Part shown: piece by piece, positions 1 through 64,000 of the stretch
Layout: the number at the start of each line of letters is the position of its first letter
Numbering within the stretch: position 1 is the stretch's first letter
DNA from: Meiothermus sp.
Lineage (GTDB): Bacteria > Deinococcota > Deinococci > Deinococcales > Thermaceae
Reading direction: 5' to 3'
NCBI RefSeq assembly: GCF_026004115.1
Contig: NZ_BPIM01000001.1
Span: forward strand, 2,212,501 to 2,276,500
DNA: 64,000 bases
Translations under genes and position numbers: made by a program
Notes under the pieces: model-generated
Told to the model about the DNA's origin: nothing
Seen by the model: only the letters and a program-made list of their open reading frames with translations
Database searches by the model: none

Positions 1-246
1 ATAATCATCCAAACCAAAGATCCCCCAGAGGCTATCTTTTTGAATCCTAGAGCACACCCCCTCCCGAACGGTCGGCGAAGAAAGCGTCTGCCTTCCAGGG
101 GGCGGTATCGCCCTCCGCTACGCGGATAACTTCCAAGGGGCGGTATCGCCCTCCGCTACGCGGATAACTTCCAAGGGGCGGTATCGCCCTCCGCTACGCG
201 GATAACTTCGGCCCGGTTAGTTCGCCGCCATCCGGCGCCGCTGGTA
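1..246 (+). mobile_element. MITE-like repeat family A, copy 1 (cut by window start)
   Basis: Non-coding repeat that matches the copies at 18774-19005 and 55097-55260. It starts inside the left hairpin loop, reads through CTTTTTGAATCCTAGAGCAC, then carries three head-to-tail 38-bp units beginning at 99, 137 and 175 (each with GGGGCGGTATCGCCC and CCGCTACGCGG). It ends in a degraded right-hand hairpin and CTGGTA at 241-246; the second hairpin arm present in the other copies is missing. No transposase is encoded. The sequence from 247 to 352 shows nothing recognisable. Confidence 0.75.
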
Positions 247-18773: not shown

Positions 18774-19005
18774 TACCGGATTCAAAAAGGCAGTCAACAA
18801 GACCAAAAGCCCTGGCGACTGTCTTTTTGAATCCTAGAGCACACCCCTCCCGAACGGTCGGCGAAGAAAGCGTCTCCATTCCAAAGGGGCTTACGCCCTC
18901 CGCTACGCGGATAACTTCCAAGGGGCGGTGTCGCCCTCGGCTACGCGGATAACTTCGGTTGGGTTGGTTCGTCACGGTTTGGCGACGAACCAACCGAATC
19001 TGGTA
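18774..19005 (+). mobile_element. MITE-like repeat family A, copy 2 (complete)
   Basis: A 232-bp non-coding element bounded by TACCGGATTC (18774-18783) and GAATCTGGTA (18996-19005). Inside the left end GGATTCAAAAAG pairs with CTTTTTGAATCC to form a hairpin. The TAGAGCACACCCC block and two 38-bp units follow. The right end is a hairpin, GGTTGGTTCGTC/GCGACGAACCAACC. The flanks are CAA and TGA, so no clear target duplication. No transposase; mobilisation in trans is inferred. Confidence 0.8.
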
Positions 19006-49343: not shown

Positions 49344-52300
49344 ATGCCGGAGCGTAAACGCCCCCAGCAGGTTCCTGTAGCAAACGAGGCCCCTACGACC
49401 CGGGGACGCCTCGAGCTGCTGGGTGTACCGGTTTTGCAGATCCAAACGCGCCAGCTTCGCCCGGTTGAGCGCAAGACGGCGGGCATCCTGGCCTACCTGA
49501 CCCTGGAAGGCCCCACCAGCCGCTCTAAGCTGGCGGGCTTGCTTTGGCCCGAGTCCTCCGAGGCCACTGCCCGCAACAACCTGGCCCAGGCCCTGCGGCG
49601 GCTCAAACAGGCTACGGGGTTCGAGCTGGTAAGGGGTGCGGATGTCCTGGAGTTGCAAGGGCTGGAGGTGGACGTGGCCGCCCTCGAGGTCGCCCACTTT
49701 GCGGGCCGCCATGGCGAGGTGGTACAAGGCCAGGGCCGCTTGCTCGAGGGCCACGACTACGACGACTGCCCCGACTTCGACGACTGGCTCTTGATCAGGC
49801 GCGAACGCTTGGACGATTTGCGTCGCAACTCGCTAACTGCGCTGACCGACGAGCTCGAGCAGGCCGGGCAGTACCGCGAGGCCCTGAGCTACGCCGAGCG
49901 CCTCCTGGAGTCCGATTCTATCTCCGAAACCGCCCACCGCCGGGTGATGCGCTTGTGGTACTTACTGGGCGACCGGAGCGCAGCTATTGCGGCCTTTGAG
50001 CGGTGTCGGGGGATGCTGCTGCGGGAGATGGGGGTAGAGCCCTTACCCGAGACCCGAGCGCTGCTCCGCTTGATCGAGTTGGGGGAGCCCATCACCCCCC
50101 ACGGACCCACGCCCCGCCTGGAAATCCCCCTCTCGGTGTTGCGCCCCCCCCGGCTTCTGGGGCGTGAGGCCGAATGGATCGAGATGGAACAGGCCTGGGC
50201 CCAGGGGCAGGCCATTGTGCTTTCGGGTCCGCCTGGGGCGGGTAAAAGCCGATTGGTACAGGATTTTCTGAGTAGCCTGGGTCAAGCTTTTGTTTTTGAA
50301 GGCCGCCCGGGCGACGTGGGTATTCCCTACGCTACCCATAGCCGTATTTGCCGCCAGATCCTGGGGTATTTTCCGGGTCTGGCCCTACCGGACTGGGTGA
50401 GGCTCGAGCTGGCCCGTTTGCTGCCTGAGCTGGGCCCAGCCCAACCTCCCCTGCAAACCCAGGCCGAAAAGCTTCGATTTTTCCAGGCCCAAGCCGAGCT
50501 GGTGCGGCTGGCGGTGGCCGAGGGAATGGGGCTGGTTTGCCTGGACGACCTGCATTTTGCCGACATGGCTAGCCTCGAGGTGTTGCATTTTGTGTATAGC
50601 CCTTACTGGGGTCGCCCAGGCCCGCTGCGCACGGCCCTGTCTTTTCGTACAGGCGAGCTTCCGGCAGGAATAGAGGAGCTACTGAGCCAGGCGGTTCAGA
50701 GCGGCCTGGCCGTGCGGATAGAGCTACAGCCGCTGGACGCTGCTGCGGTTCAAAGCTTGCTGGAGAGCCTCGAGCTACCAGGGCTGCAAGAGGTGGCGTC
50801 GGACTGGGCCCAGGCGCTCTGCCGCCATACCGGTGGCAACCCTTTTTTCCTGCTCGAGACCCTGCGCAGCCTGTGGGAATCGGGCGGGCTGGGCCAGCGC
50901 AAACCGGGCCGCCTGCCGGTTTCCAGCAAGATCACCACCCTGGTCCAGTCCCGCCTGCAGCGCCTTTCCCTGAGCGCCCAGCGGCTGGTACGCACGGCGG
51001 CGGTGGCCGGGCCGGACTTCTGCCCCGAGCTGGCCGCTGCTGTGCTCCAGAGTACGCCAATGGAGCTGCTCGAGCCCTGGGCCGAACTCGAGGCGGCTCA
51101 GCTACTGCGCGGCCCCACCTTCGTCCACGACCTGCTCTACGAGGCCACCCTGAGCAGTGTTCCGGCCAGCATCAAAACCTATTTGCACCAGCAAACCGCG
51201 CTGTATCTGGAAAGCCAACAGGCCGACCCGGCCCGCATTGCCGGGCACTGGCTCGAGGGCGAGCCCCCCCGGGCCATTCCCTTTCTGGTGCAGGCTGCCC
51301 GCAAGGCCGAAGAAGCCTACCGGCTGACCGAGGCGTCCCAGTTCTACCAGCGGGCCCTCGAGCATGCCAGCCAAACCCAGGCCTTCGAACTACTGGAGGC
51401 CCTCAGCCAGGTGATGAGCCGCTTCGATACCGGCCAGCGGCACGCGGCCCTGGTCGAGCGCATGCTGGCCCTGGCCGCTACCCCCGCCGAGCGGGCCCGG
51501 GCCTGGCTGTGCGAGGCTATCCGCCTGGGCGAGCACGCCTATGGCTCCGAGGCCGAGCAGGCTGCTCGCCAGGGCTTGCAGCAGGCCGAGGAGGCCGGGC
51601 GGTTCGACCTGCGGGTTCGCTTGTTGGACGCCCTGGCTCAGTCGCTTTTTGTCCAGCGCAAGACCCCGGCTCTGATAGAGGCCCTGGAGCAGCTCCGGCA
51701 GCTTCATCTGGAGCGGGGCGATGCGCTGCAGGCGGCCATCTGTACTTCGCGGCTGGGCATTGCTTACGACCAGCTCGAGCGCCACCGCGAGGCCCTGGGG
51801 TTCTACCGCGAGGCCGAGCCCCTTCTGGAGCAGTCCGGGAACCGGCTGATGCGGGTCGGCTTCCACCACAACCGTGCGGTCTGCCTGGCCGCGCTGGGCT
51901 ACGCCGAGGCGGCTCTGGAAGCCCAGTTGCAGGCGCAGCGCTTGCTCGAGGGTATGCAAGGCGTGGTCGGCCGTGAGGTGCACCACCTCAACAACCTGGC
52001 CCTGCGCTACTACGACCTGGGGCGCTACGCTGAAGCCCAGCAAGCCCTGGAACGCGCTTTGCAAATTGTGCCCGAAGAATGGGGCTGGACACGGGCTTTC
52101 AGCGAGTACCAGATGGCCCGCTTGTACTGGGTGTGGGGCGAGTGGAAGCTGGCTTCGGACTGGCTGGGTCGGGCCTTGGGCGAGCCCGATCTTCCGCGGC
52201 GGGACGAGGCCACCTACCGGGTTCTGGAAGCCCTTCTGGCCCACCAACTGTGCGAGCCGGTAGGGCCGCTGCTGGAGCGCCTCGAGGCCCTGTTTGCCGG

Positions 52301-52763
52301 GTACCGGGGCCTGGCGTATGGCCGCTACCTGCTGGCCAGAGCCCGCACGAGCCTCTCGGGGCAGGCTTTACAACTTCTTCAAGAGGCCCTGGCCCTGGCC
52401 CAGCAGAACGACTGGCCGAGCCTCGAGATCGCGGCCCACACCCTCTGGGCTAAAGTTTGCCTGGAAGTGCCCGCTTCTTCCCGACATTTGAAAGAAGCCC
52501 AGCGCCACATTCAGGCGGCAGTGGAGAAGCTAAAGACGTACTGGCCCACAGGCTGTACAAGGCTCGAGGTGCTGTGGGTTCACTACCGGGTTCAGGCGAC
52601 CGGCCACAAGGCCGATAGCACCCAGCTTCGACCGGTGGTAGACTACCTGCTACAGGTTGCCGAACAAGTACCCCCTGCGCACCGCCCCGGCTTTCTGAGC
52701 CAAAACCCCCTCTGCAAGACGATACTCGAGGCGGCCCAGTCGGCGGGGGTTGCTACTTTTTAG
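49344..52763 (+). CDS. SARP-type transcriptional regulator 3 (wHTH-BTAD-ATPase-TPR)
   Basis: 1139-residue regulator. A short basic N-terminal extension precedes the winged helix (about 22-95; LELLGVPVLQI, ERKTAGILAYLTLEGP, NNLAQALRRLKQ). BTAD follows (about 110-245; YREALSYAERLLESD, MGVEPLPETRALL). The ATPase has Walker A GPPGAGKS (295-302) and Walker B LVCLDDLHFAD. The C-terminal half has many TPR-like repeats (LNNLALRYYDLGRYAEAQQALERAL-type). It is most like regulator 1 in length. Operators of the A type (52768, 55063, 58899) all lie downstream, marking its likely regulon. Confidence 0.9.
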   Translation: MPERKRPQQVPVANEAPTTRGRLELLGVPVLQIQTRQLRPVERKTAGILAYLTLEGPTSRSKLAGLLWPESSEATARNNLAQALRRLKQATGFELVRGADVLELQGLEVDVAALEVAHFAGRHGEVVQGQGRLLEGHDYDDCPDFDDWLLIRRERLDDLRRNSLTALTDELEQAGQYREALSYAERLLESDSISETAHRRVMRLWYLLGDRSAAIAAFERCRGMLLREMGVEPLPETRALLRLIELGEPITPHGPTPRLEIPLSVLRPPRLLGREAEWIEMEQAWAQGQAIVLSGPPGAGKSRLVQDFLSSLGQAFVFEGRPGDVGIPYATHSRICRQILGYFPGLALPDWVRLELARLLPELGPAQPPLQTQAEKLRFFQAQAELVRLAVAEGMGLVCLDDLHFADMASLEVLHFVYSPYWGRPGPLRTALSFRTGELPAGIEELLSQAVQSGLAVRIELQPLDAAAVQSLLESLELPGLQEVASDWAQALCRHTGGNPFFLLETLRSLWESGGLGQRKPGRLPVSSKITTLVQSRLQRLSLSAQRLVRTAAVAGPDFCPELAAAVLQSTPMELLEPWAELEAAQLLRGPTFVHDLLYEATLSSVPASIKTYLHQQTALYLESQQADPARIAGHWLEGEPPRAIPFLVQAARKAEEAYRLTEASQFYQRALEHASQTQAFELLEALSQVMSRFDTGQRHAALVERMLALAATPAERARAWLCEAIRLGEHAYGSEAEQAARQGLQQAEEAGRFDLRVRLLDALAQSLFVQRKTPALIEALEQLRQLHLERGDALQAAICTSRLGIAYDQLERHREALGFYREAEPLLEQSGNRLMRVGFHHNRAVCLAALGYAEAALEAQLQAQRLLEGMQGVVGREVHHLNNLALRYYDLGRYAEAQQALERALQIVPEEWGWTRAFSEYQMARLYWVWGEWKLASDWLGRALGEPDLPRRDEATYRVLEALLAHQLCEPVGPLLERLEALFAGYRGLAYGRYLLARARTSLSGQALQLLQEALALAQQNDWPSLEIAAHTLWAKVCLEVPASSRHLKEAQRHIQAAVEKLKTYWPTGCTRLEVLWVHYRVQATGHKADSTQLRPVVDYLLQVAEQVPPAHRPGFLSQNPLCKTILEAAQSAGVATF

Positions 52764-52767
52764 CGCC

Positions 52768-52802
52768 TGTCATCTTTCAGTCATGCCCCGGGGGTTATTT
52801 TC
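52768..52802 (+). promoter_or_regulatory. SARP-type operator/promoter A1 of subtilase 3
   Basis: CTGTCAT, 4 nt, CAGTCATGC. GTCAT at 52770-52774 and 52781-52785 (11 bp apart), then exactly 11 nt to TATTTT (52797-52802). It begins 5 nt after the stop of regulator 3. Confidence 0.75.
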
Positions 52803-52868
52803 CATGACATGGTTGTCGGATTTTTTTCTAAAGCAAAAGGGCTTTTGATCAGGAACAGGAGGCAGGCC

Positions 52869-54998
52869 ATGTATGCAAGGTACGCAAGGTGGTTATTGGG
52901 TGGGGTGTTGTTGACGCTTCTGACGGCTTGCCCGGGGGGAGGGTCGGGCAGTATTGGGGGTACGGTCTCGCTGGGCTCCAGCATCACCGGGCAACGCCTT
53001 CAGATTGACTCCCAGCCGGGCAAACTCCGGCGCACGGGCGAGGCGCGCTTTGTGCCGGGCGAGGTGTTGGTGGAGTTTCGGGGAGGGGTGAGCCTCCAGT
53101 CGGTGAGCAGCCTGCGGCTTGAGGTGCAGGGTAGGCCGGTGGAACTCCAGCAGGTGCGGCCTCTGGGTCTGGCCAACACAGCCCTCTACCGCGCCGATTT
53201 GAGCGAGGCCGAGACACCAGCCTTGCTGATCGCCCTTCGCAGTCGTTCGGACGTGGCTTCCGCCGACCTGAACTGGCTCGAGCAGCCCTTGGCCGCGCCC
53301 AACGATACGCTTTACAACCTGCAGTGGCACTACCCTGCCATCAACCTGCCCCAGGCCTGGGATCGAACCACGGGCTCCAACAGCGTAGTGGTGGCCATCC
53401 TGGATACCGGGGTACTCTTCAACCCGAGTAACGCTGCCCAGTCGCACCCGGATATCGGCACTCGCTTGCTGCCCGGCTACGATATGGTTTCGCCCATCAG
53501 CGGCCCCAACCCCTTTGCCAACGCGGGCGACGGCAATGGCCGTGACCCCGACCCCTACGACGCAGGCGACGAGCAAAGCACCAGCTACCACGGTACGCAT
53601 GTGGGTGGAACCGTGGGGGCCGCGACCAACAACAACCTGGGTGTGGCCGGGGTAGACTGGACGGCCCGCCTCCTGCATGTGCGGGTGATAGGCCTGCTGG
53701 GGGCCACCGTGGCCGACCAGATCGATGCCATCCTGTGGGCCGCAGGCGAGCCGGTGCCCGGCCTGCCCGCCAACGCCAACCCGGCCAAGGTCATCAACAT
53801 GAGCCTGGGAGGCAAGGGCCCCTGCACCACCGCCCGCCAGAACGCCATTAATCTGGTCACAGGCAAGGGGGTGGTGGTGGTGGTGGCCGCCGGCAACGAA
53901 AACGACGATGCCTCGCTCTATAGCCCGGCCAGTTGCGCCAATGTGATTACCGTGGGGGCTACCGACTATGCGGGGGCCCGCGCGCCTTACTCCAACTACG
54001 GTCCCCGCGTGGATGTGATGGCCCCCGGGGGCGACGTCAGCAAAGACCTCAACAACGATAACTTTATGGATGGGGTGCTGAGTCTGGGGTTCGACGACCA
54101 GGCCCAGCAGTTCAACTACAAGTTCGAGAACGGTACCTCGATGGCCGCGCCCCACGTGGCGGGTGTGGTGGCCCTGATGAAGGCCCTCAGCCCCAGCCTC
54201 AATACCGCGCAGACCCTGCAGATCTTGAAATCCACGGCCAGACCCCTGAACGCCACCCAGTGCAACCGGCCCAGCGGCAACGACTGCGGCGCGGGTCTAG
54301 TTGATGCCAATGCGGCCCTGGCGGCGGTGCAGGGCGGCAGCACCTCGAGCTTTAGCCTGTCCACCGCCAATACCATCCTGACCGCTCAGCCAGGCGGCAG
54401 TGTGAATGTACCCATCACCATTAGCCGCAGCGGTGGATTCAGCGGAGCGGTGAGCCTGAGCCTGCAAGGTGCGCCCACCGGGGTGAGCGGGAGCTTCAAC
54501 CCGGCCAACACCACCTCGAACGACAGCACCCTGACCCTGAATGTAGCCGCCAGTGTCCCCAACGGAACCTATGCCCTGACGGTGCGGGGCACATCGGGCA
54601 GCACCTTTGCCAGCCTGCCGCTGAGCCTGAGGGTGGGGAGTGGCACCAGTGCCAGCGTGCAAGATACGGTGGTACTGGCCTGTTATGTAGCACAGGGCGA
54701 CTGCGATCCGAACCGCTCCAAGGCCATCCAGGTCAATCAGGGCGGTACCTCGGCCAGCTACACCATCGCCGATCTGACCGACGGCGACTATGCCGTGCTG
54801 GGCTGGAAAGACCTCAACAACAACGACGATGTAGACCGAGGCGACTACCTGGGCGCGGTGGTGGATCAAAGCGGCAACCTGGTTGCTGTGCGGCCCGGCA
54901 ACCTACAGGCCAACTTCCAGCTCGACGCGCTGAGCGACGACTTATCGCAGCTCGCCCCAGGGGTGTTGCGGAGCCTCGAGCAGTCTAAAATCAAGTAG
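52869..54998 (+). CDS. Subtilisin-like (S8) serine protease lipoprotein 3
   Basis: 709-residue exported protease. Lipoprotein signal YARWLLGGVLLTLLTACPGG, then an I9-like propeptide (VPGEVLVEFRGG, about 55-140). The S8 domain (about 150-470) has Asp in VAILDTGV, His in YHGTHVGG, Asn in AAGNEN and Ser in GTSMAAPH. The C-terminus has two beta domains and a final YAVLGWKDLNNNDDVDRGDY acidic calcium-like loop. AGGAGG fixes ATG 52869; an upstream in-frame start overlaps the promoter. A terminator follows at 55014. Confidence 0.94.
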   Translation: MYARYARWLLGGVLLTLLTACPGGGSGSIGGTVSLGSSITGQRLQIDSQPGKLRRTGEARFVPGEVLVEFRGGVSLQSVSSLRLEVQGRPVELQQVRPLGLANTALYRADLSEAETPALLIALRSRSDVASADLNWLEQPLAAPNDTLYNLQWHYPAINLPQAWDRTTGSNSVVVAILDTGVLFNPSNAAQSHPDIGTRLLPGYDMVSPISGPNPFANAGDGNGRDPDPYDAGDEQSTSYHGTHVGGTVGAATNNNLGVAGVDWTARLLHVRVIGLLGATVADQIDAILWAAGEPVPGLPANANPAKVINMSLGGKGPCTTARQNAINLVTGKGVVVVVAAGNENDDASLYSPASCANVITVGATDYAGARAPYSNYGPRVDVMAPGGDVSKDLNNDNFMDGVLSLGFDDQAQQFNYKFENGTSMAAPHVAGVVALMKALSPSLNTAQTLQILKSTARPLNATQCNRPSGNDCGAGLVDANAALAAVQGGSTSSFSLSTANTILTAQPGGSVNVPITISRSGGFSGAVSLSLQGAPTGVSGSFNPANTTSNDSTLTLNVAASVPNGTYALTVRGTSGSTFASLPLSLRVGSGTSASVQDTVVLACYVAQGDCDPNRSKAIQVNQGGTSASYTIADLTDGDYAVLGWKDLNNNDDVDRGDYLGAVVDQSGNLVAVRPGNLQANFQLDALSDDLSQLAPGVLRSLEQSKIK

Positions 54999-55013
54999 GC
55001 TCCCAATCCTTCC

Positions 55014-55044
55014 AACAGACCCCTGCGGGGGTCTGTTCTTGTTT
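55014..55044 (+). terminator. Intrinsic terminator after subtilase 3 gene
   Basis: AACAGACCCC and GGGGTCTGTT form a 10-bp stem with a 4-nt loop, followed by CTTGTTT. It lies 16 nt after the stop. Confidence 0.85.
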
Positions 55045-55062
55045 AGCGTGGGAACCGCTCCA

Positions 55063-55095
55063 GTCATCCTCCAGTCATGCGGGCTGTTCTACCTT
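55063..55095 (+). promoter_or_regulatory. SARP-type operator/promoter A2 of the repeat protein gene
   Basis: CAGTCAT, 4 nt, CAGTCATGC. GTCAT at 55063-55067 and 55074-55078, then exactly 11 nt to TACCTT (55090-55095). MITE copy 3 begins two bases later, so transcripts would start inside the element. Confidence 0.75.
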
Positions 55096-55096
55096 A

Positions 55097-55260
55097 TACC
55101 AGATTCGGTTAGTTTGGCGCCGGATGGCGGCGAACTAACAGGGCCGAAGTTATCCGCGTAGCGGAGGGCGATACCGCCCCTTGGAAGGGAGTGCTCTAGG
55201 ATTCAAAAAGATAGCCTCTGGGGGTCTTTGGTTTGGATGATTATCTTTTTGAATCCGGTA
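55097..55260 (-). mobile_element. MITE-like repeat family A, copy 3 (complete)
   Basis: A 164-bp element bounded by TACCAGATTC (55097-55106) and GAATCCGGTA (55251-55260), inverted relative to copies 1 and 2. It holds one 38-bp unit, the GTTAGTT/AACTAAC hairpin and the GGATTCAAAAAGATA/TATCTTTTTGAATCC hairpin. TTA lies directly on each side (55094-55096 and 55261-55263), a probable 3-bp target duplication. It forms most of the leader of the gene at 55303. Confidence 0.82.
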
Positions 55261-55302
55261 TTAGCTGCACACTCCCCCAGAGGGTTGAGCAAGGAGGAAG
55301 TC

Positions 55303-57873
55303 ATGCAAGGGATGCGAAGGCTGGCTGTGGGTATTTTGCTGATGCTTGGTTTGTTAGGCTCCAATGCCCTGGCGGCTCGTGCTTTCTTCGACAGTAATTT
55401 TGTATCAGTCAGCACAATTTGCCCGGTGACCGGCAACATGGTGGTCGCAACACAGAATACTGTAGGCTACTTTACCGACCCTAACGAACCCTACCCCAAG
55501 ACAGGTGATTTGGCCTATGTGCGGGCCAGCTCTACCAATGTAAGTCCGTGTACCAACGATGCAGTCGGTTTTGATTTTTTTCTGCCCGAGGGAGCCAGCT
55601 TTGCCGTTAGCAACCAGCATCCGGTGTATTGCTACCTAATTAGGCTCTCGGACGGCTACACCATCGATGTTTCCAACAACCCCCAGGGTTTTCAGGGAAA
55701 TTGCTCTCAAACTCCACAAACTGCTGGAGCCGGGGGAACCGCTTATGGCTGGGCTGTACTTCCGTCGGGTTGGCAGTTTCAGGTGCGCGTGCCTGTGCAG
55801 TTCAACAAACAACTTTTGGGCCTTGCTGGCCCCAACACCCACCGCCTGAAGGCGACGGCCGTCACGACCTACGGTAATGCCACCCCAGAGCAGCCTGTGA
55901 CGATCTTCTATCGGGCTGACTTCCAGAATTTGCAGAGCAGCGGTATCACGACCAACTCGGCTACTTTGGGCGTTAACCTTTATAGCTATTATAAGGGCGG
56001 CCTGCTGTATGTGGATTACGGAACCACCAGCTCATTTGGCTCGAGCACCCCTTCCACCAGCGTGCCCACTGCCCTTAATTTCCCCAACGTCAGCGCCAAC
56101 CTTACGGGCTTGAGCCCCGGCACCACGTACTACTGGCGTTACCGCTTCGTCACCGATGCAGGAACTTTCAATAGTTCCACCCAGACCTTCACCACCTCGG
56201 CGGCTCCTACCTTTGCCCTTTCGGTCAACAAAAACGGTACGGGCTCGGGCACCGTGACGAGCAGTCCCTCAGGTATCAACTGCGGCGCTACCTGTTCGGG
56301 CAGCTTCACCCAGGGCGCTACGGTCACCCTAGCTGCTGCACCTGCGTCGGGCTCGGTATTTGCCGGGTGGAGTGGATCCGGCTGTAGCGGTACGGGTAGC
56401 TGTACGGTAACCATGAGCGCAGCTCAAAGCGTCACCGCTACCTTCAACACCGCGCCCGCCTCTACCTTCAACCTGACCGTCAACAAATCCGGCAGTGGCA
56501 GCGGTACCGTCACCAGCAACCCAACTGGCATCAACTGCGGTGCTACCTGCTCGGCTTCGTTCAACGCCGGGGCCTCGGTAACCCTAAGTGCAGCGGCGGC
56601 CAGCGGCGCTACCTTTGCCGGTTGGAGTGGGGCCTGCACGGGTACGGGTACCTGCACCGTCACCATGAATGCCGCCCAAACCGTGACCGCTACTTTCAAC
56701 ACCGCGCAAAGCTTCGGCACCCTCAATCTACAGGTGTCGGGCCTGCCCAGCGGCAACAGCGCCACCCTCACCATCACTGGTCCGGACGGCTTCAATCAAC
56801 AGCGGACCATTTTGACCGGCACCGGCCAATCGCTATCCGATGTGGTGACCGGTGTTTACACCGTCACGGCTCCCAGTGTGGTGGTGAGCGGTACTACCTA
56901 CAACCCCAACCCGGCCAGCCAGAACGTCACTGTGACCACCGGCAGTGCCACCGCCAGCGTGAACTACACCCAGGCACCTGCTGCCACCTTCGCGCTTTCG
57001 GTAAGTAAGGGTGGAACAGGGGGTGGAACCGTCAGCAGCAGCCCAGCAGGCATCAACTGTGGCGCGACCTGTTCCGCCAACTATAGCTCCGGGGCTAACG
57101 TGATCCTGAGCGCGGTTGCCGACACAGGCTCGAGCTTCGCCGGCTGGGGTGGGGCCTGTAGCGGTACGGGTACCTGCTCGGTCACGATGGACGCAGCCAG
57201 GTCGGTCATAGCTACCTTCAACACCGCACCCGCAGGCGCCTTGACCATCAGCGCAGCCAAGCCCGCCAACGCCCCCACCGATGCCACCCGCAACAAAGGC
57301 CAGAGCAGCGTCTTGATGCTGGCCTTCACCCTCAACCCCTCGCAGGCCACCCAGTTGCAAAACATCACCCTGCAGGCCAGCGGCAGCGGCAACGACAGCC
57401 TCGACCTCACGGTGGTCAAGCTGATCCGCGATGCCAACGCCAACGGCCAGATTGACAGCGGTGAAACCCCCATTGCCAGCGGCACCTTTAGCGCCGACAA
57501 TGGTACCCTTACCCTCACTTTGTCCACCCCGCTGGCCCTCGGTACGGGCGACAGCCAGTTCCTGGTGGCCGCCGATATCGCCAGCACCCTGGCGGCCCGT
57601 CCGGCGGTACTGAAGGCCCAGAGCCTCCCGGCCCTGCCCACGCCCTTGCTGCTTACCTTGCTGCCCCTGGTACTCCTGGGTGCGTGGCGGATGCGCTCGC
57701 TGCGGGTGGGACTCCTGGCCCTGGCCCTGAGCCTGGCCGCCTGCGGCGGCGGTCAGAGCACCACCCCGGTTAACAAGACCTATCAGATCAACCTGACCGC
57801 CGTGAGCGCCCAGGGCAGCCCCACCCTGAGCGGCCTGCCCATTACCGGTGCCACCATCACGGTGCAGAAATAA
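55303..57873 (+). CDS. Large secreted repeat protein (FN3, InlB-B-like repeats, odd C-terminus)
   Basis: 856-residue exported protein. Signal peptide RRLAVGILLMLGLLGSNALA, a novel N-terminal domain with several Cys (to about 215), then an FN3-like domain (about 225-310; LTGLSPGTTYYWRYRF). Three related repeats of about 80 residues (starting near 56209, 56461 and 56986), each with GINCGATC, GWSG/GWGG and TVTM.AA..V.ATFN, resemble divergent InlB B-repeats. A SGLP-type beta domain lies between repeats 2 and 3. The end has a hydrophobic helix, RMRSLR, a second hydrophobic stretch with lipobox-like LSLAAC, and a 40-residue tail. AGGAGG fixes ATG 55303. Expected under operator A2. Confidence 0.85.
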   Translation: MQGMRRLAVGILLMLGLLGSNALAARAFFDSNFVSVSTICPVTGNMVVATQNTVGYFTDPNEPYPKTGDLAYVRASSTNVSPCTNDAVGFDFFLPEGASFAVSNQHPVYCYLIRLSDGYTIDVSNNPQGFQGNCSQTPQTAGAGGTAYGWAVLPSGWQFQVRVPVQFNKQLLGLAGPNTHRLKATAVTTYGNATPEQPVTIFYRADFQNLQSSGITTNSATLGVNLYSYYKGGLLYVDYGTTSSFGSSTPSTSVPTALNFPNVSANLTGLSPGTTYYWRYRFVTDAGTFNSSTQTFTTSAAPTFALSVNKNGTGSGTVTSSPSGINCGATCSGSFTQGATVTLAAAPASGSVFAGWSGSGCSGTGSCTVTMSAAQSVTATFNTAPASTFNLTVNKSGSGSGTVTSNPTGINCGATCSASFNAGASVTLSAAAASGATFAGWSGACTGTGTCTVTMNAAQTVTATFNTAQSFGTLNLQVSGLPSGNSATLTITGPDGFNQQRTILTGTGQSLSDVVTGVYTVTAPSVVVSGTTYNPNPASQNVTVTTGSATASVNYTQAPAATFALSVSKGGTGGGTVSSSPAGINCGATCSANYSSGANVILSAVADTGSSFAGWGGACSGTGTCSVTMDAARSVIATFNTAPAGALTISAAKPANAPTDATRNKGQSSVLMLAFTLNPSQATQLQNITLQASGSGNDSLDLTVVKLIRDANANGQIDSGETPIASGTFSADNGTLTLTLSTPLALGTGDSQFLVAADIASTLAARPAVLKAQSLPALPTPLLLTLLPLVLLGAWRMRSLRVGLLALALSLAACGGGQSTTPVNKTYQINLTAVSAQGSPTLSGLPITGATITVQK

Positions 57874-57939
57874 AGCCCTGGGGTGTCGGCTCCGGGCTGC
57901 CTCCTCAGGGCCGACACCCACCTTCTGGAAGGGAGAATC

Positions 57940-58701
57940 ATGAGTCAGACTCGAAAAGCCCTGGCTTTCCTCGCCACCCTGGCAGCCCTGAGCCCTGTCC
58001 TGGCCCAGTGGGTTGCGCCAGGCACCACCTTCGGCGCACCCAGCGGCATGAGCTATTCCCAGGCCATGGCCTACGCGAGCGTTCAGACGAATACAGCCGC
58101 AGTTCGGCGGGCCCAGGGAGAACTGAACCGCATCAACAGCCTCAACCGCAACAACCCCAGCGCCCAGGCCACCGCCCGCACCCAGGCCCAGACCGCCCCC
58201 CAGACCCGCTTCCGTCCCGGCCCACAGCGGCTGATGGTGAGTGGGTTTGTCCGCAGCCTGAGCCGCGACCCCGCCACCGTCCGCGAGATGACTATGGCTT
58301 TCAATGAAGCCTTCAAGGCCTTCGAGGCCGAGGCCAAGCGGCTGGGTAGGCCCAACAACGTGGCCATGGCTTTCACCTATCTAGTGGGGGTCTGCTACAT
58401 GGTGTACTACGGTGAGGAGCCCAGCGAGACCGCACTCATGAACCTTCAGGCCAATACCGATGCGGCCTTTGGGAGGTCGGCGGCCTTCATGGCGCTGTCG
58501 GCCCAGGATCGCCAGAAGCTCTACGAGACCTTTGTGCTGATGGCTACCCTCCCGCTTTTGGGCTACACGGTGGCGGTGCAGGAAAGCGACCCGAAACTCC
58601 TGGAGACCTACCGCGAAATTGCGGGGGTGGCCCTCGAGAGCGCCCTGGGGGTGCGCCCCGACCGTCTGAAGTTCACGGCAACGGGCCTCGAGCTGCGCTA
58701 A
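57940..58701 (+). CDS. Secreted helical hypothetical protein
   Basis: 253-residue protein with signal peptide KALAFLATLAALSPVLAQ. A Gln/Asn/Thr-rich linker (residues about 45-95) leads to a helical domain (MAFNEAFKAFEAEAKRLGRPNNVAMAFTYLVGVCYMVYYGEE; LYETFVLMATLPLLGYTVAVQ). No family named with confidence and no catalytic motif. It starts 66 nt after the large repeat protein with GGAAGGGAG before the ATG, so co-transcription from operator A2 is likely. Confidence 0.8.
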   Translation: MSQTRKALAFLATLAALSPVLAQWVAPGTTFGAPSGMSYSQAMAYASVQTNTAAVRRAQGELNRINSLNRNNPSAQATARTQAQTAPQTRFRPGPQRLMVSGFVRSLSRDPATVREMTMAFNEAFKAFEAEAKRLGRPNNVAMAFTYLVGVCYMVYYGEEPSETALMNLQANTDAAFGRSAAFMALSAQDRQKLYETFVLMATLPLLGYTVAVQESDPKLLETYREIAGVALESALGVRPDRLKFTATGLELR

Positions 58702-58703
58702 AG

Positions 58704-58895
58704 GTGGAAACCGTGGCGCCTAACAGCACCCAAGTATACGTGGTTCGCATCTGGTACGAGCCCACCTCCCAAGGGGAGGTCTGGCGGGCTTCGATCAGCC
58801 AGGGTGAGGAGCGCCGTTACTTCACTGAACCCAGCGCCCTGGCGGCGTTTTTGCAACAAGAGATAGAAGAGTCCAGGGAAGAGGCGACCGAGTAG
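58704..58895 (+). CDS. Small conserved protein, paralogue of 23108-23296
   Basis: 63-residue protein without a signal peptide, 2 nt after the preceding stop. GTG start with AAAGG upstream; GTG 58713 is another option. It shares the pattern VYVVRI...RYF....ALA..L with the first gene of the SARP 1-linked operon and ends in an acidic tail (EIEESREEATE). Function unknown; possibly a cytosolic partner or chaperone of the exported proteins. Confidence 0.65.
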   Translation: METVAPNSTQVYVVRIWYEPTSQGEVWRASISQGEERRYFTEPSALAAFLQQEIEESREEATE

Positions 58896-58898
58896 CCG

Positions 58899-58931
58899 GT
58901 CATGCCTCAGTCATGCTGGATTGTCTACCCT
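58899..58931 (+). promoter_or_regulatory. SARP-type operator/promoter A3 of the tandem lipoprotein operon
   Basis: CGGTCATGC, 2 nt, CAGTCATGC. GTCAT at 58899-58903 and 58910-58914, then exactly 11 nt to TACCCT (58926-58931), the same -10 as in B1. The ribosome-binding site CAGGAGG of the next gene follows at once. Confidence 0.75.
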
Positions 58932-58949
58932 TGGCACCAGGAGGTACGG

Positions 58950-60041
58950 ATGTACAGAATTCCCATCACGCCGGCGCTGTTGCTGCTCTTGGTCGCTTGT
59001 GGGGGTGGCGGGGGAAACAACCCTACCAACCCTAACCCAAGCAACCCCCCCAACCCTACCGGCAGCTTCCCCGCCGAGCTCTCGGGGGTCTGGCAGGACA
59101 CCCTGGCCAGCAGCGGCAACTTCAAGAACCCCCTTACCGGCTTCGAGTTCACCATGACCGAGGGTTATTCGGCCCAACTCAAGGTGAAGCCCAATGGCGA
59201 GTTCTACTTCGCCCACTACTCCCAGGGGGTTGCGTCCAACTGTAGCCTGGTGAGCTTCTTTGACCAAATGGTGGGGCTGGCCGAGTGGAACAACAACCGG
59301 CTCGTCCTGCGCCCCCGCGAGCGCCGGTTGGACGTGCGGAACTGCGCCCAGTCGGGCACCTTCAACCAGCGGCTCGACCCGGTGGTGTTCGAGGCTTCGG
59401 TGAGCGAGTACCCCACCTTCCTGGATACCAGCTTGCTGATGAAACTCTCCGGCGGGCCCTATCCCCTTCGCTTCAAGCTGCTGAACCGTACCCCGCCCGC
59501 CAACCTGCCCCAACCGCCCCAACCCCCTGACTTCGAGTTGGGTCAGGACGGCCCCTACGACGAAATCCTGGGGCTGTGGGGCCGCAACGAGACCAACTTC
59601 TACAACCCCCAGACCGGGGCCTACCAGTTTCCCGACTGCTGCGGGGAGAACCGCTTTGTGCGCTTCTCGCCCGAGGGCTACGAGCTGGGCATGGCTTTTG
59701 TGCGGGTGAACCTCGAGGGGGTCTGTGAGAAAGACCTGATCTACTACGAAAAGGGCCAGGCCCTGTTCAAAATCACCTACCAGCGCGACAGCGACACCTA
59801 CCAGGGGGATGTGCGTCTGGCCGCCAGCGAGGCCCGGCTAATCGTGCGAATCCGCGAGTGCGGGGCCGACGACGGGGTGCAAACCTATACCTTGCAGCCC
59901 CTTACCCGCTACCACCGCTGGAGCTACACCCTGCCCGTCGGGGGGGAGAGCTTCATGCTGGGCTGCCAGTACCCCACGCACTTCTGGGGGTTTGCGGTCT
60001 GCTACGGAGCCTACCCCTGGTACACCTACCAGCGGCGGTAA
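58950..60041 (+). CDS. Lipoprotein with internally duplicated domain, tandem paralogue 1
   Basis: 363-residue lipoprotein: MYRIPITPALLLLLVACGGGG (lipobox LVAC), a Pro/Asn-rich linker, then two related domains. Domain 1 (about 40-190) runs GVWQDT...FKNPLTGFEF...FYFAHYSQGVASNC...NRLVLRP; domain 2 (about 200-340) runs GLWGRN...FYNPQTGAYQF...GVCEKDLIYYEKGQ...EARLIVRIREC. Conserved Cys pairs suggest disulfides. No known family. AGGAGG supports ATG 58950. First gene after operator A3, followed 14 nt later by its paralogue. Confidence 0.8.
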   Translation: MYRIPITPALLLLLVACGGGGGNNPTNPNPSNPPNPTGSFPAELSGVWQDTLASSGNFKNPLTGFEFTMTEGYSAQLKVKPNGEFYFAHYSQGVASNCSLVSFFDQMVGLAEWNNNRLVLRPRERRLDVRNCAQSGTFNQRLDPVVFEASVSEYPTFLDTSLLMKLSGGPYPLRFKLLNRTPPANLPQPPQPPDFELGQDGPYDEILGLWGRNETNFYNPQTGAYQFPDCCGENRFVRFSPEGYELGMAFVRVNLEGVCEKDLIYYEKGQALFKITYQRDSDTYQGDVRLAASEARLIVRIRECGADDGVQTYTLQPLTRYHRWSYTLPVGGESFMLGCQYPTHFWGFAVCYGAYPWYTYQRR

Positions 60042-60055
60042 AGGAAGAAGGGTCT

Positions 60056-61126
60056 ATGGTCACACCTAAAGCCACTATGTTCACCCTGGGGTGTTTGATT
60101 TTGGCTGGAAACCCCAGCCCGATTCGGGCACAGAACCAGGGTTTCCCCGCTCTGCTGGTGGGGGTCTGGCGGCAAACAGCAAGTTCTGCCGAAGACTACA
60201 CCAACACCGTAACGGGCGAGCGGTTCCGCCTGGGCAGTGGTTTTTCGGTCAAGCTGATTTTGCATGCCGATGGGCGCTACGTCTTGCAGCACTACACCCA
60301 GGGGGTGAGCTCGAGCTGCGCCCGCGTCAGCTACCTAGACGACTCGGTGGGAACCGCAACCGTTCAGGATAACCGGCTTGTCATGCGGCCCAGCCAGCGC
60401 ACCCTGACCATCGTCAACTGCACCAGCCCCGGCAAACGCACCCTGCCCAACAACCCCCTGGTGTTTAATGCCAGCCTCGAGTACTACGAAACCCTGATCA
60501 AGGAAGTCACCCTGAAGCTGGAACTCCAGGGGGGGCCCTTTCCCTTGAGTCTCAAGCTGCTGCAACTCGACCCCATGCTGGAGCTACCGCCGCCCGCCCA
60601 GCCCGAGGGTTTTCAACTGGGCCAGGATCCCCCCTACCGCGAACTGCTGGGTTTGTGGGCCGACGCCCAGGATTCCGATACGGGCTTTTATAACCCGCAA
60701 ACCGGGGCTTTTTACATTCCCAAATACAACGCAAGGGAAAACCGCTGGCTGCGCTTTGTGTCGGGTGGCTACGAACTGGCCAAGGTCTTTGAAGATGCCA
60801 ACACGGAGGGGGTTTGCAAAAAAGACCTGATCTACTACGAAAAGGGCAGCGCCCTCGTCCAGGCGTTGAACGTAAACAACGATACCTACTCGGGCGACGT
60901 GCGCTTCCAGGCCAGCGAGGCCCGCCTGATCGTCCAGGTTCGTGGCGAGGGCTGCGGCAGCTTTGCGGGGACCAAGCGCTACAACCTCAAACCCCTGACG
61001 GCTTATTACAAGTTTGGCTTTACCGAGTCGGTGGGGTTTCAGTTGGGCTGTGAGTGGCCCCAGCATCGGTGGCAGTTTGCGGTCTGCGTCAACCGCGCGG
61101 GCTGGAACAGCTATCGCAAGCGGTAG
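60056..61126 (+). CDS. Secreted protein with internally duplicated domain, tandem paralogue 2
   Basis: 356-residue protein related throughout to the previous one (GVWRQT, QHYTQGVSSSC, NRLVMRPSQRTL, FYNPQTGAFYI, GVCKKDLIYYEKG, SEARLIVQVRGEGC). Instead of a lipobox it has a cleavable-type signal (MFTLGCLILAGNPSPIRAQ), so it is probably released or periplasmic while paralogue 1 is lipid-anchored. AAAGGAAG precedes ATG 60056; an internal ATG at 60077 would give a shorter signal. Function unknown. Confidence 0.78.
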   Translation: MVTPKATMFTLGCLILAGNPSPIRAQNQGFPALLVGVWRQTASSAEDYTNTVTGERFRLGSGFSVKLILHADGRYVLQHYTQGVSSSCARVSYLDDSVGTATVQDNRLVMRPSQRTLTIVNCTSPGKRTLPNNPLVFNASLEYYETLIKEVTLKLELQGGPFPLSLKLLQLDPMLELPPPAQPEGFQLGQDPPYRELLGLWADAQDSDTGFYNPQTGAFYIPKYNARENRWLRFVSGGYELAKVFEDANTEGVCKKDLIYYEKGSALVQALNVNNDTYSGDVRFQASEARLIVQVRGEGCGSFAGTKRYNLKPLTAYYKFGFTESVGFQLGCEWPQHRWQFAVCVNRAGWNSYRKR

Positions 61127-61140
61127 TAGGGGGATCCTTG

Positions 61141-62247
61141 ATGCGTATTGGAATGCTCCTGGGTTTGGTTGGGTTGGTGGCTTGCTCGAGCCCCCCTCTG
61201 GCCCGCCCCCACTATGTGCTGGTCAGCCAGGCGGGCTCCAGCACCGTGGCGGTGATAGACCCCACGCAGGGTAAAACCATCCAGCACATCACGGTGGGCG
61301 GATTGCCGCACCGGATGATTCTGAGCCCGGATGGCCGCAAGGTGTATGTGGTGCTGGTGGGCTCGCAGGCGGTGGCCGAGGTAGACGTTCGTTCGCTGGC
61401 GGTAACCCGTACCTTCCTGACCGCTCCCGTGCCCGAAAGACGCGCCGACGGCACCCTCATCCAGGCCCACTTCGACCAGGGCGCATTTACCCATACCACC
61501 TGCTTTGCCTGCCATAACCCTGGCGGGGCCAAACCCTTCATTGTGGGTGCGCGGCCCGTGGGGATTGCGCTCTCGAGCGACGCCTCCAGGCTTTTCATTT
61601 CGCACATCCGCCAGGGGCTCCTGAGCGAGATTAGCCTGCGAGATGGCGCAGTCGTGCGCTCAGCAAGCCTGCCGCCCTCCGGTTCGGCCAACGAGGCCGC
61701 CGATGTAGCCCGCGTGGGTTCGAAATTGGTGGTGGCCCTGCGCCCCCGCCAGCCCAGCACCGAAGCCAGCGCAGTACGCTGGCTGGACGAGCAAAACTGG
61801 CAACCCCTGGCCGAAGCCCCTACCGGCTCCGACCCCGCGTTTGTGTTGCCGCTGAAGGAGGGGGCTTTGGTCTCCAACTTCGAGTCCAACACCCTCAGCT
61901 TGCACGTGCCGGGTGCCGCCCCTCAACGCTTTACCGTCACACCGGGGCCGCTGGGGATGTTGCGGGTAGGGGAGGGGCAGGTTCTCTCGCTCAACTACTA
62001 CTCCAACGCGGTTTCGCTGCTCGACCTGGAGACCGGCCAGAGCGAAAACCACCGGCTCGAGCTTGCGGGCACGACCTTCGTCAACCCCACCCACGCGGCC
62101 CTCTCGCCGGATGGACGCCTGGCCTACATCGTTAGCAGCGGCACCGAGGGTCGCCTGCTGGTATTCGATTTGAAAAGCGCCAGGGTTCTGCGGGCCATTC
62201 CGATTGATGGCCTTTCGTTTGATGTGGTGGTGGTCGGGCGGCACTAG
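61141..62247 (+). CDS. YVTN-type beta-propeller lipoprotein with CXXCH haem motif
   Basis: 368-residue lipoprotein (MRIGMLLGLVGLVACSS). Blade motifs of YncE/YVTN propellers recur: NTVAVIDPTQGK-like STVAVIDPTQGKTI, GGLPHRMILSPDGRKVYVV, RPVGIALSSDASRLFIS, HAALSPDGRLAYIVSSG. Between blades 2 and 3 (about residue 122) lies TTCFACHNP, a single c-type haem attachment motif. This suggests a surface redox or sensing protein. It starts 14 nt after the preceding stop; same operon. Confidence 0.82.
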   Translation: MRIGMLLGLVGLVACSSPPLARPHYVLVSQAGSSTVAVIDPTQGKTIQHITVGGLPHRMILSPDGRKVYVVLVGSQAVAEVDVRSLAVTRTFLTAPVPERRADGTLIQAHFDQGAFTHTTCFACHNPGGAKPFIVGARPVGIALSSDASRLFISHIRQGLLSEISLRDGAVVRSASLPPSGSANEAADVARVGSKLVVALRPRQPSTEASAVRWLDEQNWQPLAEAPTGSDPAFVLPLKEGALVSNFESNTLSLHVPGAAPQRFTVTPGPLGMLRVGEGQVLSLNYYSNAVSLLDLETGQSENHRLELAGTTFVNPTHAALSPDGRLAYIVSSGTEGRLLVFDLKSARVLRAIPIDGLSFDVVVVGRH

Positions 62248-62284
62248 CGCTGGGAAGGGGCTTTGGAAGTCCCAGGAGGATACT

Positions 62285-64000
62285 ATGAAGAACAACCTTG
62301 GTTTAGTGGCGTTGCTGGGCTTTTTGGTGGCTTGTGGCGGTGAAAACAATGGTGGAGGTAACACTGCCCCCAGCGCCCCCAATACCGTGGCCGGTCTGGT
62401 GACCGATATTGGCTCCGGGGTGCGGCTTGCGGGCGTGACGGTGCGGGTGGTGGGCAGCAGCCGAAGCACCACCACCGACAACCGGGGCGAGTTCATCCTG
62501 CAAAACCTGCCTGCCGGCCTGGTCAAGCTGGACTTCGAGAAGGTGGGCTACGCTCCAGGCCACGGCATCGCCGAGTCCACCAGCAGCGCCCAAACGGTGG
62601 TGGTAGCCCTCAAGAAGGAGGGCACCGAGCAAGGCTACGACCCCACCCAGGCCCGCACCCTGTTCCAGCGCACCGAGGCCGGCCCTTATGCCGTCATCTT
62701 CCAGCCCAATAGCCTGGACACCACCGATACCAACCTGCGGGTGGTGGTGACACCGCTCGACCCCACGAAGGAAGATACCGCCCTGCCTGGCGACCTGGTG
62801 GCCGGCGGGGCCAGTCCCACCCCCCTGGCCCCGGTGACCTTTGCCGAGTTTAGCATCCTGGACTCGCAAAACCGCCGTATCAACCTCAAGCCAGGCTCCA
62901 GCGCCATAGTGGAACTGCCCATTCCTCCTGAACTGCGCAGCCGCTACCGGATAGGCGATAAGATTCACTGCTACGCCTACAACCCCCAGACCGGGCGTTG
63001 GGAAGACTTTGTGGAGGGTACGGTGGAGCGCTCGAGCGTGGATGGCACCACTCCGGTGCTCAAGGCCAGCATCCGGCACTTCTCCTGGTATGGCGGGGCC
63101 CCGGCGGTGCAGGATCAGGAGTGTGTGGCTGTCGAGGTGCGCAACCGCTTTGGGCCGCTGGAAGGCGCAGTGGTTACGGCGCGTCCTGGGTTGCGGGCGG
63201 TAACCAACCGCTATGGACAAGCCTCTATCACTATAGAAAAGGGCGTGCCGGTCAACTTCACGGCCACCAAAACATATACCGATACCTTTGTGGATAACAA
63301 CGGCAATCTGATTCCAAAACCTGGCGCGAAGGTCATAGTCATCGGCAAGGTCTACGAGGACGACTTGATCGGCCTCGACGGCAAAAACTACAGCCGCACG
63401 CCGGGGCCGTGTCCGGGTGCTTCGGTGCAGTCGGTGCGGCCTGCCGCCACCAACCCCCTCCCGATTCGCGTGGCCCCCGCCCCGGAGGGTTTTTTCCAGG
63501 CCACCGCGCTATTGCAGCCGGGGGGTGTGGCTCTTGTGCAGCTCGAGAAGGGCATCCCCAACGCCGACGGCGACCTGGACAACGCCGAACCGGCCAGCGG
63601 CGCCCAGATCATCATCAGCGATAACACCGGTAAGACCGCGACTCTGAGTGAACTTGCACCGGGCAGCGGGGCGTATTTTGCGAATAACTTCACCGTCGAA
63701 CCTGGCAAACGTTACACCCTGAACATCGACGCTGACGGTAACGGCAGCTTGGATGGCAGCGGATCGGCCTTTGCGGTGGGCAATGTGGCCTGGAGCAACC
63801 TGTCGAACGGCGGGAGCTACAGTGCCTCCAGCCTAACCGCTACCTGGAGCGATAGCGCTGCTGCCCAGCCCGGCTACAACGCTTTGTACCAGGTCACCTT
63901 GCAACGCAACGGCGGCTCTGGGGTTTCCGACCTCGCTTTTTATGTGGGCTCAGAGCGCAGCTTCCAGCCCCGTGCCCAGACCAACCCACCCACCCCGCTG
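62285..64000 (+). CDS. Lipoprotein with carboxypeptidase regulatory-like domain (cut by window end)
   Basis: At least 572 residues; open to the last base. Lipoprotein signal MKNNLGLVALLGFLVACGG, then a carboxypeptidase regulatory-like/CNA-B-type domain (about 32-105; GVRLAGVTVRVVGSSRSTTTDNRGEFILQ). Further beta domains carry acidic DADGNGSLDGSG and NADGDLDNAEPASG loops that look calcium-binding. AGGAGG precedes the ATG. It starts 37 nt after the propeller gene and is probably in the same A3-controlled transcript. Full length and C-terminus cannot be seen. Confidence 0.82.
   Translation, partial: MKNNLGLVALLGFLVACGGENNGGGNTAPSAPNTVAGLVTDIGSGVRLAGVTVRVVGSSRSTTTDNRGEFILQNLPAGLVKLDFEKVGYAPGHGIAESTSSAQTVVVALKKEGTEQGYDPTQARTLFQRTEAGPYAVIFQPNSLDTTDTNLRVVVTPLDPTKEDTALPGDLVAGGASPTPLAPVTFAEFSILDSQNRRINLKPGSSAIVELPIPPELRSRYRIGDKIHCYAYNPQTGRWEDFVEGTVERSSVDGTTPVLKASIRHFSWYGGAPAVQDQECVAVEVRNRFGPLEGAVVTARPGLRAVTNRYGQASITIEKGVPVNFTATKTYTDTFVDNNGNLIPKPGAKVIVIGKVYEDDLIGLDGKNYSRTPGPCPGASVQSVRPAATNPLPIRVAPAPEGFFQATALLQPGGVALVQLEKGIPNADGDLDNAEPASGAQIIISDNTGKTATLSELAPGSGAYFANNFTVEPGKRYTLNIDADGNGSLDGSGSAFAVGNVAWSNLSNGGSYSASSLTATWSDSAAAQPGYNALYQVTLQRNGGSGVSDLAFYVGSERSFQPRAQTNPPTPL

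Follow-up and report, generated by a model that had tools for sequence, protein, structure and literature searches.

In the 3.35-Mb genome of a hot-spring Meiothermus, a copy of a high-copy MITE of this genus lies one base behind the −10 element of a conserved promoter and separates this promoter from the leader of a gene for an 856-aa secreted or surface protein (Table 1). The insertion was analyzed within a window of 64,000 nucleotides (the whole stretch of DNA studied) and compared across 18 Meiothermus genomes, including those of M. hypogaeus, M. granaticius, and M. rufus. We consider it likely that the MITE transposed into a TTA that overlaps the last two −10 bases in an activator-dependent promoter and left this promoter in place, that the transcription start would have moved into the MITE, at ~55102, and that a BTAD (SARP/AfsR-like) regulator would still be able to drive the gene past the inserted element. 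The mRNA would thus gain ~167 strongly folded nucleotides ahead of an unchanged ribosome-binding site; control would not be lost, and any change in initiation rate or in the stability of the mRNA would be mild or neutral.

Table 1 Features of the locus (positions in the window unless another locus is named).
Feature	Position	Strand	Basis or remark
Predicted activator, 1139-aa BTAD-AAA-TPR protein, SARP/AfsR-like layout	49344–52763	+	PF03704, PF13191, TPR
Second predicted operator and −10-like site, before the subtilase gene	52767–52801	+	One mismatch
Intrinsic terminator of the upstream subtilase gene	55014–55037	+	10-pair stem, T-rich tail; same place in relatives
Operator, direct repeats CAGTCAT-CCTC-CAGTCAT, 11-bp period	55061–55078	+	Predicted site of the BTAD regulator
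−10 element TACCTT	55090–55095	+	11 nt past the second repeat; conserved in relatives
Target-site duplication TTA, left copy	55094–55096	+	Overlaps the last two −10 bases; single copy in relatives
MITE, 164 bp	55097–55260	+	Terminal repeats, target-site duplication, genome matches, empty sites
Hairpin I of the MITE, GTTAGTTTGGCGCC/GGCGGCGAACTAAC	55108–55139	+	Pairing and covariation over copies
38-bp internal unit, tandem in other family copies	55146–55183	+	Copy length classes
Long terminal hairpin of the MITE, GGATTCAAAAAGATA/TATCTTTTTGAATCC	55199–55256	+	
Target-site duplication TTA, right copy	55261–55263	+	
Shine-Dalgarno AAGGAGG, native leader	55291–55297	+	Conserved in three relatives
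Target gene, 856-aa secreted or surface protein, three divergent InlB B-repeats	55303–57873	+	PF18998, E 1.8e-21
Third predicted operator and −10 site, before the predicted lipoprotein gene starting at 58950	58897–58931	+	One mismatch
Insertion sequences nested inside MITE copies	L063 1007–2172; L066 864–2206		

The MITE, its family, and its insertion

The MITE at 55097–55260 begins and ends with TACCAGATTC … GAATCCGGTA, its inverted terminal repeats being TACCAGATTC and TACCGGATTC; it contains no transposase ORF and has no coding capacity. The span 55063–55302, to which the preliminary description referred, consists of the promoter, the MITE, and the native leader and not of the MITE alone. 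The fold of the element is more stable than each of 200 shuffles (z −3.7). In 26 distinct MITE copies, 93% of the hairpin I cells are paired, and two-sided changes occur at five pairs compared to a shuffled mean of 1.9 (none of 500 shuffles was as high), with a similar covariation score in one slid control. No Rfam family and no tRNA were found in the 64-kb window.

A genome search with TNATACCRGATTC, a pattern combining the end and the target, gave 274 sites (144 + 130) compared to none for the reversed pattern used as a control, which argues against a chance origin of the MITE. With the MITE itself as a query, at least 69 scored matches were obtained (218 candidates seen, only 40 scored), and among the scored matches at least 11 other full-length copies are 92–98% identical to it. 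An exact 3-bp duplication was present in 25 of the 35 extracted copies, 23 of these having the TNA form, and all but one of 34 copies are intergenic as judged from rough ORF maps. The copies fall into length classes of 125/126, 163–166, ~195, 201/202, 232, 240, 278, and 316 bp, explained by zero to five 38-bp units plus an optional stretch of ~32 bp. The 38-bp unit (GAAGTTATCCGCGTAGCGGAGGGCGATACCGCCCCTTG) is repeated two to five times in copies L016, L018, L019, and L020 and at 109–240 of the window, forming a minisatellite inside the MITE. Two further family members are present in the window (1–240 and 18774–19005, both on the minus strand), and the family was found in 15 of the 18 Meiothermus genomes. 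A plasmid search retrieved copies on only two Meiothermus/Allomeiothermus plasmids, where they are unannotated, and an open-access literature search for Meiothermus and MITE found no paper on Meiothermus MITEs.

The insertion is derived and not ancestral, since M. hypogaeus, M. granaticius, and an uncultured Meiothermus (G016) possess an uninterrupted site (TACCTTAGCTGCAC in M. hypogaeus); removing the MITE and one TTA from the window restores the site of these three relatives. The orthologues or homologues of G001, G009, G010, G012, G013, and G015 also have no MITE between the −10 and the start. Another family copy occurs in the same intergenic region of G016, upstream of the terminator; it is flanked by a separate TCA duplication (TGA on the opposite strand) and is an independent event. 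The preliminary description, which had recognized a MITE behind the −10 and taken its insertion to be lineage-specific, is thus borne out by the ends, the TTA/TTA duplication, the many copies, and the empty sites in relatives; the contrary case that it had listed, a leader ancestral in all relatives, is false, as M. hypogaeus, M. granaticius, and G016 lack the MITE.

No autonomous partner with the MITE ends was found among the 18 DDE_Tnp_1 matches examined, which cover that transposase family only. Two of them are bracketed by MITE ends, and both belong to insertion sequences that have landed within MITE copies. The L063 element, which is embedded in MITE sequence and bounded by ends of its own (GAGGCTGTCG), was rejected as the parent, as was the L066 element (380-aa transposase), considered nested because its other copies are without MITE ends. 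A pattern for divergent MITE ends retrieved two ordinary MITE copies only and no parent. A TNA target duplication is typical of the IS1031 group. An origin from this group of the IS5 family would fit the duplication; no DDE_Tnp_1 transposase with matching ends was found.

The promoter and its predicted regulator

The repeat pair CAGTCAT-N4-CAGTCAT occurs once in this genome and 18 times in 10 of the 18 Meiothermus genomes, compared to once in the reversed control. A TANNNT is located exactly 11 nt past the pair at 16 of the 18 exact sites, with a start codon close behind and usually a ribosome site, and the repeats and TANNNT precede an orthologue or homologue of the target gene in nine other Meiothermus genomes. 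As the repeat pair and its spacing to TANNNT are conserved in the genus, we regard the promoter as real. Upstream of it, ~17 bp (AGCGTGGGAACCGCTC, 55044–55060) between the terminator and the operator are absent in close relatives and unique in this genome; in G012 (L032), the opposite strand carries 14 of these bases, at a place upstream of the same terminator. A 15-bp sequence before the operator, GCGTGGGAACCGCTC, was considered as a second repeat element and rejected, being unique in the genome.

The 1139-aa regulator carries a BTAD domain (PF03704 at 6.7e-15); for its N-terminal 285 residues, Pfam gives BTAD/TPR and sub-threshold hits only and no winged-helix domain. Ten of the 18 genomes encode a full-length orthologue of this regulator (65–100% identical), and the exact operator was found in these ten only; the co-occurrence corresponds to one in 43,758 partitions under an independence of the genomes that does not hold. 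M. rufus (G006), whose orthologue is broken across two frames, has no exact operator, and its sites deviate from it by one or two mismatches. The regulator gene immediately precedes the target gene in G013 and G015, where the operator occupies the interval between the two genes. We infer that the BTAD regulator probably binds the CAGTCAT repeats and activates the target gene.

With up to two mismatches, the operator has three sites in the genome, all at this locus (52767, 55061, and 58897), and the reversed control has none in the 18 genomes. The site at 55061 alone has a MITE. From 49344 to 62300, the BTAD gene would be followed by three operator-driven transcripts, encoding the subtilase, the InlB-repeat protein with a DUF6683 protein, and a lipoprotein group, and we predict that this stretch is a local regulon. 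Because the operator, the spacing, and the −10 are intact at 55061, the BTAD regulator may still drive the target gene. The MITE replaces all bases from the −10 to the native leader, and promoter opening may be weaker or stronger.

The new leader and its possible consequences

The gene start at 55303 is correct: AAGGAGG and ATGCAAGGGATG are conserved in M. hypogaeus, M. granaticius, and G016; orthologues of the gene in four Meiothermus genomes are 78–88% identical. For a transcription start ~7 nt past the −10, the leader would measure 201 nt with the MITE and 34 nt without it. An ATG within the MITE (55237) is in frame and could extend the protein by 22 residues, but it has no good ribosome site. 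Between the target gene and the DUF6683 gene (57873–57930), a strong hairpin (GGGGTGTCGGC...CTGCCTCCTC...GCCGACACCC) was observed, and a similar GGTGTCGG...GGAGGAGGCA...CCGACACC (other strand) occupies the same place in G009, G012, G013, and G015; this is a conserved intergenic structure.

The modeled mean unpaired probability of AAGGAGG was 0.68 with the MITE and 0.69 without it at 37 °C, and 0.70 and 0.82, respectively, at 55 °C. As these values are nearly the same, occlusion of the ribosome site by the MITE leader would be small, and it was not retained as an explanation. Cleavage of the leader by RNase III was likewise left unsupported: the genome (99.8% complete) has no match to TIGR02191 or PF00636, while control genomes match. 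The control Thermus composti was silent too, so a divergent RNase III is conceivable. The preliminary description had placed the MITE directly behind a regulated promoter and expected the transcript to start inside the element and include its hairpins. The conserved CAGTCAT repeats and the TACCTT −10, one base from the MITE, agree with this placement, and a transcript from this promoter would indeed begin within the MITE. Its further suggestion, that the leader alters translation or mRNA stability, has found no support so far, given the near-equal accessibility and the lack of a detected RNase III, and the insertion may be neutral for the gene.

An unlikely alternative is that the MITE, through the sequence it brings after the −10, inactivates or strongly weakens the promoter, so that this strain would express the gene barely or not at all. 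The element does replace the whole discriminator and start region; against a loss of the promoter, the frame of 856 aa is still intact, and neither the ribosome site nor the start codon has changed. No gene decay is therefore visible, and the insertion may be too young for it. We find it somewhat less likely again that the MITE has its own outward promoter and frees the gene from the regulator, like the Correia element at meningococcal mtrCDE. Outward promoters are known for Correia elements (PMC2649163, PMC10969869), but no sigma-70-like site was detected here between 54950 and 55400 at the scan threshold, weaker sites and other promoter types being outside the scan. It is very improbable that the leader with its hairpins has been domesticated as an RNA element controlling the target gene: the fold beats all shuffles and hairpin I covaries, but copies genome-wide, in both orientations, share the structure, which is thus a property of the transposon family and not of the site, selection at this position is not apparent, ribosome-site accessibility is barely changed, and RNase III was not found. 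We rate lowest of all the adoption of the leader as a structured RNA, for example a temperature-dependent one, that tunes the surface-protein gene in a genome without a recognizable RNase III.

Relation to known systems

Correia elements have Correia ends and a TA duplication, which the Meiothermus MITE, with TACCRGATTC ends and a 3-bp TNA duplication, does not share. At mtrCDE of Neisseria meningitidis, a Correia repeat (CREE) is inserted between promoter and gene and transcribed as a leader; cleavage by RNase III and a loss of control by MtrR/MtrA have been reported there (PMC2649163). This is the closest precedent. At both loci, a MITE separates a gene from its native, regulator-controlled promoter, giving, or in our case predicted to give, a hairpin-bearing mRNA leader. 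In contrast to the Neisseria element, the Meiothermus MITE has unrelated ends and an unrelated duplication, and no RNase III was found. The arrangement of a MITE as a leader is therefore already known from Neisseria, and the Meiothermus case involves a different MITE family. As far as its description goes, the BrickBuilt MITE of Porphyromonas gingivalis (PMC4596501) likewise has an internal tandem-repeat unit, from which the Meiothermus unit would differ by its 38 bp and its zero to five copies.

SARP sites are described as directly repeated heptamers spaced by 4 bp in the vicinity of the −35, and the AfsR site is stated to be 8 bp before the −10 (PMC10972967, PMC7040171). The CAGTCAT operator fits this pattern by its heptamers, 11-bp period, and predicted position in the −35 area, and the regulator combines BTAD with AAA and TPR as in the Streptomyces SARP/AfsR proteins. 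However, the CAGTCAT unit ends 11 nt before the −10, and the phylum and the targets differ.

With its operator and −10 untouched and empty sites in sister species, this locus would be a clean natural case of a MITE made into an mRNA leader. The locus also leads us to predict a SARP/AfsR-like regulator outside the actinobacteria whose small regulon would comprise secreted-protein genes of the same locus.
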